Shown: one piece after another, positions 16,816-18,560 of the stretch
Numbering within the stretch: position 1 is the stretch's first letter
Layout: each line of letters opens with the position of its first letter
Source of the DNA: Bacillus gobiensis
Lineage (GTDB): Bacteria > Bacillota > Bacilli > Bacillales > Bacillaceae
NCBI RefSeq assembly: GCF_001278705.1
Contig: NZ_CP012600.1
Span: 2,977,917 to 3,041,916, forward strand
DNA: 64,000 nucleotides
Reading direction: 5' to 3'
Notes under the pieces: model-generated
The model's input: the letters and a program-made list of their open reading frames with translations, nothing else
What the model was told of the DNA's origin: nothing
Database searches by the model: none
Position numbers and translations under genes: made by a program

Positions 16816-17859
16816 CTAAAGCTGGAGCATTTTATTTCCTGCTGCTTTAAGAAGCCGATTCATAATCGCTTTTCCAACCCCTTCATCCGGAAAGCTTTCG
16901 GCTAAAAGGATATCAAGCTCATCATCATCAAAGCTTCGAAGCGTATCATATAAACTATAGGCTACGGTATCCAGCTTGCTCCGGCTGCCGCATGACTTAA
17001 CCGAAGAAGCATTATATACAGATTCCCGCTCCTTTGTTGTTAATATTCCTACTCTCAGACCTTCCTGCCTATACCGGTCAGCAAGCTCTTGTATTTGCTC
17101 CGGTCTTCCATCAACAATTGTTAGCGGAGCTACCGGAGCATAGTGCCTATACTTCATCCCTGGAGAGATCGGCGCCTTTCTTTCATCCGTTAACGCCTCA
17201 TCCATTCGCACCGGACCTGCTACTCTCTCCAGCTCCTCTTTCGTGATTCCACCGGGTCTTAAAATCACAGGTGCTTCGCCGATACAAGAAACAACCGTTG
17301 ATTCAAGCCCCACTCCAGTTGGTCCGCCATCAATAATCCCGGCAATTTTTCCATCCAGATCATTCAATACATGAACAGCCTTTGTCGGACTCGGTTTTCC
17401 TGACAAATTCGCGCTTGGAGCGGCAATCGGCAGACCGCTTTGTTTAATGATTTCCATCGCAACGGGATGACTCGGCATTCGGACTGCTACTGTATCAAGC
17501 CCGGCAGTCACCTTTGTTGATAGCTTCCCCTGCTTGCAAGGGACCACAATTGTCAGCGGACCCGGCCAAAAGCTTTTGATAAGTTCTTCTGCGTATGGTT
17601 GAATATTTTCTGTGAATCGCTCGAGATCCTCTATTTTCGAGATATGGACAATAAGCGGGTTATCACTCGGACGCCCTTTCGCTTCATATATTTTCATGAC
17701 CGCTTCCGTACTCATTGCATTAGCACCGAGGCCGTAAACCGTTTCTGTCGGAAAGGCAACTACCTCATTTTTTTGCAATAGCTGCGCAGCCTGTGAAATC
17801 TGTGAATAATTTGTGGATAAATCCTTTTTTGCATCCACAGTCCATTGCATCGTTTTCAT
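16816..17859 (-). CDS. ywlC: L-threonylcarbamoyladenylate synthase (Sua5/YwlC)
   Basis: Makes threonylcarbamoyl-AMP from threonine, bicarbonate and ATP, the first step of tRNA t6A37 modification. 347 residues: the YrdC domain (about 20-210; [30 protein letters not shown]) and the C-terminal Sua5 domain (about 240-347; [15 protein letters not shown] linker). ATG at 17859 with GAGGAG upstream. Its leader contains part of a DnaA-box cluster; the B. subtilis homologue is among the DnaA-bound loci I recall. Confidence 0.94.
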
Positions 17860-18047
17860 TTTATCCAAAACTCCTCTAAATCTTTTAAAATACTCCTAGT
17901 TATATAAGCATTTTCCGCAAAAATTACTGTAGAAAGTATAAGTCAAGAATAACAGAAAAACAAGTGTTGTCCACATATTGTGGATAACACTTGTTTGCCA
18001 GTGGATATGTTTGTGAATAAGATGTTGAAAAAAAACCGTTATCCACA
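17801..18047. promoter_or_regulatory. DnaA-box cluster at the ywlC-ywlB junction
   Basis: Three perfect TTATCCACA boxes (17812-17820 minus, 17979-17987 minus, 18039-18047 plus) and four with one mismatch (17801-17809, 17861-17869, 17967-17975, 18012-18020) in under 250 bases, plus two weaker ones (17831-17839, 18000-18008). The cluster runs from the first codons of ywlC to the stop codon of ywlB. DnaA-box clusters outside oriC, including one near ywlC, are known in B. subtilis, where they titrate DnaA or control genes. Confidence 0.85.
17956..17995 (-). terminator. Terminator of ywlB built from two inverted DnaA boxes
   Basis: A 17-base-pair near-perfect hairpin (arms 17959-17975 and 17979-17995, one mismatch, 3-base loop) followed on the minus strand by five T. 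The inner part of each arm is a DnaA box (one perfect, one with one mismatch). Confidence 0.8.
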
Positions 18048-18491
18048 ATCCCTCATTTCTTTCACCATAAGTTCCGCTCCTTTGGATTTCAGCGCTTCTG
18101 CTGCATGCTCTGAATGGTGGATGGCTTGGGGAATGTTTTTTGTTTTTTTGAACCCCATCACATCTAAAAATTCGAACGAGGCCTGTTGGTTGGCAACCAA
18201 GTACAAGGTCCGAATCCTTTCATGGTCGCAAAGTAACTGCATGCTTTGAAAAAGCGAAACAATATGCCCCTGGTTCAGCTTGTCGGAAACAACCAATGAT
18301 CGCAATATACCCCGACTATCCCCTAACTCTTCCAACCCTAAACACGCTGCAATTTTTTTATTGTTTTCTTCGAGAATAATAAATTTGCTGCCTTGAGTTC
18401 CAACCCCTTCATGCCCTACATTCGCCTCTTGTAAAAACTGAATAATTGCCTGCTCGTCCGACTTCTCCGCCACCCTCATTTGATAGTACAC
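18039..18491 (-). CDS. ywlB: GNAT family N-acetyltransferase YwlB
   Basis: 150-residue acetyltransferase of unknown substrate. The GNAT fold is seen as a beta-strand VVSDKLNQGHIVSLF region replacing the usual acetyl-CoA loop, then LYLVANQQASFEFLDVMGF, the typical last strand-helix. The GTG start at 18491 follows AGGGG. The TAA stop is embedded in a perfect DnaA box. Position between spoIIR and ywlC is as in B. subtilis. Confidence 0.82.
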   Translation of the reverse strand: MYYQMRVAEKSDEQAIIQFLQEANVGHEGVGTQGSKFIILEENNKKIAACLGLEELGDSRGILRSLVVSDKLNQGHIVSLFQSMQLLCDHERIRTLYLVANQQASFEFLDVMGFKKTKNIPQAIHHSEHAAEALKSKGAELMVKEMRDCG

Positions 18492-18560
18492 ACTGTCACC
18501 CCTATAGTTTATCTCCTTACTTCAATTTATGAGGGTATGTGCAGGTATATGCCCGTTCAT

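Follow-up and report, generated by a model that had tools for sequence, protein, structure and literature searches.

A DnaA-box cluster at the ywlB-ywlC junction of Bacillus gobiensis, its conservation among Bacilli and its extension into the ywlC reading frame

The junction between the ywlB-like gene and ywlC of Bacillus gobiensis carries seven DnaA boxes with at most one mismatch, three of them perfect copies of TTATCCACA, in both orientations within 247 nt (positions 17801-18047; Table 1) of the 64,000-nucleotide stretch of DNA that we analyzed, hereafter the window. The boxes are present with a conserved geometry, they adjoin a promoter-like element, and they coincide with a constraint on the codons of ywlC. 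Most probably, this site is the local version of the DnaA cluster at the ywlB-ywlC junction of Bacillus subtilis, and it would repress ywlC and hold DnaA. Binding of DnaA and repression of ywlC in B. gobiensis would follow by orthology with B. subtilis; we infer that DnaA also binds the boxes located in the coding sequence and that the site contributes to the titration of DnaA. A sequence-only reading of the window had already counted three perfect and four single-mismatch boxes in both orientations, and had placed the ywlB stop codon inside one of them; all seven were located in our analysis. Its statement that B. subtilis has a DnaA-box cluster near ywlC was likewise correct, this being the published region 6. 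Our analysis additionally places two boxes in the ywlC coding sequence and one in front of its start codon, and it adds two degenerate boxes.

Table 1. Features of the ywlB-ywlC junction (window positions)
Feature	Position	Strand	Description
ywlC / tsaC	16816-17859	-	L-threonylcarbamoyladenylate synthase, 347 aa; TIGR00057, PF01300, PF03481
Box TTATTCACA	17801-17809	-	1 mismatch; inside ywlC, offset +50
Box TTATCCACA	17812-17820	-	Perfect; inside ywlC, offset +39, Leu-Ser-Thr codons
Degenerate box GCATCCACA	17831-17839	+	2 mismatches; relic of the relatives' +20 coding box
Box TTATCCAAA	17861-17869	+	1 mismatch; between likely ribosome-binding site (17871-17876) and ywlC start codon
Predicted ywlC -10	17935-17940	-	TATACT, 17 nt from -35
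Predicted ywlC -35	17958-17963	-	TTGTTT, inside 3' arm of outer stem
Hairpin around dyad	17958-17996	-	T-rich tail; possible ywlB terminator
Box TTGTCCACA	17967-17975	+	1 mismatch; second half of inverted double box
Box TTATCCACA	17979-17987	-	Perfect; first half of inverted double box (dyad)
Degenerate box ATATCCACT	18000-18008	-	2 mismatches; decayed box 2 of tandem pair, 3 bp from box 1
Box TTATTCACA	18012-18020	-	1 mismatch; box 1 of tandem double box
Box TTATCCACA	18039-18047	+	Perfect; overlaps ywlB stop codon
ywlB-like open frame	18039-18491	-	150 aa; named by synteny, between spoIIR and ywlC

The product of ywlC matched the TIGR00057 profile with 217.7 bits (cut-off 123.2). That of the ywlB-like gene, which has spoIIR one gene upstream, gave only an acetyltransferase match below the cut-off (54.6 bits vs. 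125) and no Pfam match. With ywlC identified by TIGR00057 and ywlB by synteny, the cluster lies at the junction between the two genes, and a ywlB-like gene precedes ywlC at all 44 loci of the genus and all 36 further loci of the family. The ywlB-like frame occupies positions 18039-18491 on the - strand, so that its TAA codon is part of the perfect box at 18039-18047. This box is peculiar to the window species (one of 44 genus loci at this offset); when these 44 loci were searched for conservation of a box at the ywlB stop, none was found.

It is the clustering of the boxes that is unusual. The window as a whole contains 21 matches with at most one mismatch, compared with a shuffle mean of 15.6, but the densest 247 nt held one box in 69, two in 75 and three in six of 150 dinucleotide shuffles, as against the seven boxes of the window. 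Similarly, the genome (4,597,587 bases, one contig) contains 45 perfect boxes, compared with 34 matches to a backward control pattern, so that the genome-wide total is not remarkable. The cluster does not represent oriC: the dnaA gene, with boxes around it, is positioned at 3,555,885-3,557,201, about 560 kb away. Another cluster of this genome (4322500-4326800) is flanked by gcp (TsaD, TIGR03723) and an ABC-F gene in convergent orientation and fits the gcp/ydiF region of B. subtilis; among 30 chosen genomes, 26 had at least four boxes in the 450 nt that follow the gcp stop codon and four had none there. Two further box clusters were noticed at 3064000-3068000 and 3450000-3454000; the former, near a thiD-like gene, we take to be perhaps the ywcI/vpr region of B. 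subtilis.

We located ywlC in 44/44 genomes of the genus, 80/80 of the family (including the genus), 150/150 of an order sample and 160/161 of a class sample. Boxes were examined at 44 loci of the genus, at 36 more from the family, and at 64 and 40 additional loci of the order and the class, respectively. The order and class loci are part of these samples, mostly with one or two per family; those from the order, all outside the family, cover 45 of 46 further families (one with a partial match was omitted), and those from the class cover 34 of 35, one family being left out. A panel of named records, consisting of the best 80 of at least 595 matched stretches, appears to share at least two genomes with the other samples. 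Given this overlap and the relatedness of the genomes, the counts are not independent events. Between offsets -250 and +63 at ywlC, boxes with at most one mismatch occur at 20.0 (genus), 23.4 (family), 20.1 (order) and 8.9 (class) per kb, compared with 0.67, 0.48, 1.55 and 0.85 per kb between -900 and -250. Three or more boxes are present at 44/44 genus, 36/36 family, 61/64 order and 21/40 other class loci. Among the best 80 of at least 595 matched stretches, grouped by record name, the same holds for 19 of 21 records from Bacillaceae-like bacteria, Planococcaceae, Sporolactobacillus and Brevibacillus, for three of four Staphylococcaceae and for both Enterococcus records; it holds for none of five Paenibacillus, none of five Lactobacillaceae and none of the 43 other named records, which include Clostridia, Negativicutes, archaea and MAGs. 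This distribution indicates a site that is old within the Bacilli, though missing in some of them. Goranov and co-workers (in 2005) reportedly mentioned recognisable DnaA sites in other bacteria. At two Enterococcus and two class loci, we noticed a perfect box at -12 from the ywlC-like start, over the ribosome-binding region.

The array upstream of ywlC consists of a tandem pair, a 12-bp gap and an inverted pair, with a 3-bp gap inside each pair. At the 80 genus and family loci, a start-to-start spacing of 12 in inverted orientation was found in 80, and tandem spacings of 33, 21 and 12 in 74, 69 and 67, respectively. The corresponding numbers at the 64 order loci are 34 (inverted 12), 16 (tandem 33), 27 (tandem 21) and 24 (tandem 12); at the 40 class loci, the inverted spacing persists in nine, while the others are mostly lost or shifted. 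As seen in an alignment of nine loci, box 2 of the tandem pair has decayed in the window, whereas relatives carry a box with at most one mismatch there; both degenerate boxes listed in Table 1 occupy offsets at which relatives possess good boxes.

The inverted pair forms the inner part of a hairpin with a T-rich tail, as the sequence-only reading had noted, and as a fold this structure is real: its arms (17958-17975 and 17979-17996, 18 nt each) form 17 of 18 pairs (94% complementary), and folding as - strand RNA yields -22.9 kcal/mol (z -5.2). The single A.C mismatch is present because the two boxes differ at position 3. In spite of the T-rich tail on the - strand, a consensus terminator scan did not report the hairpin, perhaps owing to a stem that extends into its T tract; the only site that it listed between 17500 and 18700 is a terminator-like one on the + strand at 18533-18554, near the ywlB start. 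The predicted ywlC -35 element begins three bases after the dyad and is weak, matching 3/6 consensus letters; a consensus promoter scan did not list the predicted -35/-10 pair, and listed another promoter-like site nearby instead. The pattern TTGNNN-16/18-TATA[AC]T, starting 1-5 nt after the dyad, was found at 44/44 genus, 31/36 family, 11/42 order and 0/10 class dyads, and at five of the 13 dyads in the named panel (best 80 of at least 595 matched stretches). Should the predicted promoter be correct, the -35 region of ywlC would coincide with the outer stem's 3' arm.

Dyad and outer stem vary in different ways. In 59 distinct hairpins from genus and family, position 3 of the dyad box is an unpaired A.C in 13 and G.U in 12; in 40 hairpins from the order, position 5 is C-G in 24, a wobble in seven and unpaired in nine, and this position corresponds to the degenerate letter of the DnaA-box consensus TTATNCACA, as given in the available text of PMC4447404. 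The changes inside the dyad fit the degeneracy of the DnaA box and not base pairing. The outer stem, in turn, shows compensating changes in genus and family (59 hairpins; outer-1 pair: GC 28, CG 19, TA 11, GT 1; outer-2 pair: CG 45, TA 9, TG 4, CA 1) and is often missing further out: it has two or fewer pairs at 0/44 genus, 2/36 family, 18/42 order and 7/10 class dyads, and at 5/13 of the named dyads (best 80 of at least 595). Terminator-like dyads number 29/44 in the genus, 26/36 in the family, 16/42 in the order, 2/10 in the class and 4/13 among the named ones from the same best 80 of at least 595. Moreover, of the 32 order loci at which no ywlB-like gene was detected upstream, 19 possess the dyad, which is terminator-like in four of them. 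Kept without the stem and without ywlB, the dyad is therefore more widely distributed than the terminator-like stem, which may have been elaborated in near relatives. The alignment that the sequence-only reading had proposed as a check on boxes versus hairpin thus shows that box positions are kept more widely, and that the outer stem covaries in near relatives.

Within the ywlC reading frame, relatives carry boxes at offsets +20 (Val-Asp-Asn/Lys), +29/+32, +39/+42 (Leu-Ser-Thr) and +50/+53 (Tyr-Pro-Gln/His). The +20 box (at most one mismatch) is present at 34/36 family and 38/64 order loci, with none listed among the genus loci. At least one coding box with no more than one mismatch starts between +3 and +62 at 44/44 genus, 36/36 family, 58/64 order and 16/40 class loci, and a perfect one at 34, 32, 51 and 16 loci, respectively. 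We permuted the codons within each gene 200 times, keeping protein and codon usage. Perfect boxes in codons 2-24 exceed this synonymous expectation 4.4- to 6.5-fold (genus 34 vs. 5.2, family 45 vs. 8.0, order 74 vs. 16.7), and none of the 200 shuffles reached the observed number in any group; by genome, 51/64 from the order have such a box where 15.5 (sd 3.1) are expected. Codons 25-125 are enriched as well (19 vs. 1.7, 12 vs. 1.5 and 25 vs. 3.9). Deeper boxes were seen in relatives at +208, +266, +336 and +360, that at +208 being TTGTCCACA within a conserved IVHI motif.

Codon choice at the motifs, counted only at loci where the motif is present, is strongly skewed. The proline of YPQ/H is encoded by CCA in 21/21 genus, 32/33 family and 32/32 order motifs (elsewhere 19%, 35% and 36%), the valine of VDN/K by GTG in 15/15 family and 63/69 order motifs (elsewhere 18% and 25%), and the serine of LST by TCC in 43/44 genus and 21/21 family motifs (elsewhere 18% and 13%), but in only 4/7 of the order sample. 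Not every letter is kept: in 16 of the 21 LST motifs of the family, threonine is encoded by ACT, and the box thereby loses its last base. A first control, comprising upstream frames between -900 and -250 (143 of 144 loci), was itself enriched (69 vs. 25.6 expected with at most one mismatch; 12 vs. 2.13 for perfect boxes), and our guess is that boxes extend into the upstream gene at some loci. We then used controls situated farther away: 52 other open reading frames of the window (10 observed vs. 11.5 expected), 90 flanking frames of 30 genus loci (4 vs. 5.5) and, as a second flanking set, 37 frames of 13 named loci (9 vs. 6.6), these being the 13 of 18 cluster-bearing loci with over 3 kb. For ywlC of the window alone, the whole-gene test is weak (two boxes with at most one mismatch, P 0.056; one perfect box, P 0.007). 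The coding-box codons precede the Sua5 domain model, which begins at residue 27, and N-terminal alignments to solved relatives start at residues 15-21; hence, this is a stretch where the protein may tolerate constraint. Collectively, the codon data provide good support for a constraint that DnaA boxes would impose on ywlC. A literature search found no paper on DnaA boxes in the ywlC coding region or on class-wide conservation of the site; key B. subtilis cluster papers lay outside its coverage, and such findings may be in print.

We propose that DnaA would bind a core of two double boxes, one tandem and one inverted, each with a 3-bp gap, with 3 bp separating the end of the last core box from the predicted ywlC -35, and that it would also occupy the boxes at the start codon and within the first 20 codons. 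The resulting complex would cover the promoter and repress ywlC, and by holding several DnaA molecules on the origin-proximal chromosome, the site would lower the level of free DnaA. In near relatives, the inverted pair would also be built into the stem of a hairpin at which ywlB transcripts may terminate and whose 3' arm doubles as the predicted -35 region. In B. subtilis, ywlC has been described as DnaA-repressed, and PywlC-lacZ expression was lower in a mutant with about twice the amount of DnaA, an effect that the authors consider likely to result from the extra DnaA (available text of PMC12112137); their fusion covers 240 bp upstream and 73 bp downstream of the ywlC start codon. With the promoter pattern found at only 11/42 order and 0/10 class dyads, repression at this particular promoter may not be general.

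Several other explanations deserve consideration. The stable stem, the T-rich tail and the compensating changes of the outer stem in genus and family would suit inverted boxes that are kept only as the stem of a ywlB terminator. We find this barely credible and have rejected it, since changes inside the dyad break the pairing (A.C in 13/59; position 5 other than C-G in 16/40), loci that lack a stem or ywlB still keep the dyad, and boxes outside the hairpin are conserved too. In another scenario, DnaA on the dyad might work as a roadblock or as an attenuator, with an effect that would depend on the RNA hairpin; in its favor, the sequences of the dyad, the outer stem and the -35 overlap, both in the window and in near relatives. 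With the stem often absent where the dyad is kept, and with nothing of this kind for the ywlC site among the papers listed in a literature search, we deem this quite unlikely. The sequence-only reading had proposed that DnaA binding could compete with transcription through the hairpin or depend on it. This gained no support, as the dyad persists with an outer stem of at most two pairs (18/42 in the order) and without ywlB (19/32).

The boxes in ywlC could be a by-product of the conserved protein motifs VDN/K, LST and YPQ/H, given that these residues are conserved within groups and that related motifs occur in some sequences from outside the Bacilli. The enrichment of the upstream-frame control tempers the case against this view, which we nonetheless rejected as highly improbable: 0/200 protein-preserving shuffles reached the observed numbers, codon choice at the motifs is skewed, and the distant controls are near 1. 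Finally, the site might be a titration sink only, with ywlC repression as an incidental consequence that is not itself under selection. Boxes do reach beyond the promoter into the coding sequence, and early initiation follows when six non-oriC clusters are deleted (Okumura, 2012, as cited in the available parts of PMC5295017 and PMC13220808); the same reviews also give counter-evidence on titration, as the deletion phenotype is strong only with all six clusters removed (PMC5295017) and no over-initiation occurs at about 10-fold DnaA (PMC13220808). A pure sink could sit anywhere, but the fixed spacings recur at the same gene over many families, and the array abuts a promoter-like element in genus and family; we therefore regard a sink alone as unlikely. 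The earlier suggestion of a conserved site for DnaA titration or DnaA-dependent regulation stands with respect to conservation and, by orthology with the reported ywlC repression, to regulation, while titration rests on reviews that present evidence on both sides.

Discussions of non-oriC DnaA-box clusters treat them as sinks or as promoter sites. At ywlC, such a cluster has been retained by a single gene all the way from Bacillus to Enterococcus; its spacings are fixed in nearer relatives, and some of its boxes are written into the reading frame, so that synonymous recoding in B. subtilis could tell which boxes matter for repression and for initiation timing. Loss of ywlC in B. subtilis leads to a stringent-response signature that affects 27/37 stringent transcription units, and a section heading of the same study reports elevated (p)ppGpp in suppressor strains (available text of PMC4634966). 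Repression of ywlC by DnaA could therefore feed back on growth and replication, and we offer such a loop from DnaA via ywlC to growth and replication as a hypothesis. That two t6A genes, ywlC and gcp/tsaD, have conserved clusters raises the question why; coincidence is possible. Selection on the coding boxes may have shaped the codons of ywlC, and perhaps its N-terminal residues, across much of the Bacilli, and DnaA may, together with the gcp cluster, tie its abundance to t6A modification; we put forward this wider picture tentatively and consider it rather doubtful.

Region 6 of B. subtilis ("upstream of ywlC; downstream of ywlB") belongs to the eight regions that DnaA binds most strongly in vitro, and these are bound in vivo as well; it contains 9 predicted sites in 300 bp and has an apparent Kd of 0.25 µM for ATP-DnaA (available text of PMC4447404). 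As the counterpart of this published site, the window cluster is of a kind already known. Both share the gene junction and dense boxes in both orientations within about 300 bp (seven in 247 nt in the window); the window differs in its decayed tandem box 2 and in the extra perfect box over the ywlB stop codon, and neither coding boxes nor wide conservation are discussed in the available part of PMC4447404. Escherichia coli DnaA favors paired boxes that are separated by 2 or 3 bp, and pairs with a 3-bp gap are common to both systems; one of the two pairs in the window is inverted, however, whereas the E. coli model joins tandem boxes (available text of PMC11317965). The E. coli datA locus is likewise a non-oriC box cluster that limits initiation; datA acts together with IHF and stimulates DnaA to hydrolyze its bound ATP (available text of PMC5295017); B. 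subtilis is without IHF and datA, as stated in the available part of PMC13220808. The gcp(tsaD)/ydiF cluster comes close in context, being also a published and conserved B. subtilis cluster beside a t6A gene; it differs in lying between convergent genes after gcp, and not at the gcp promoter.
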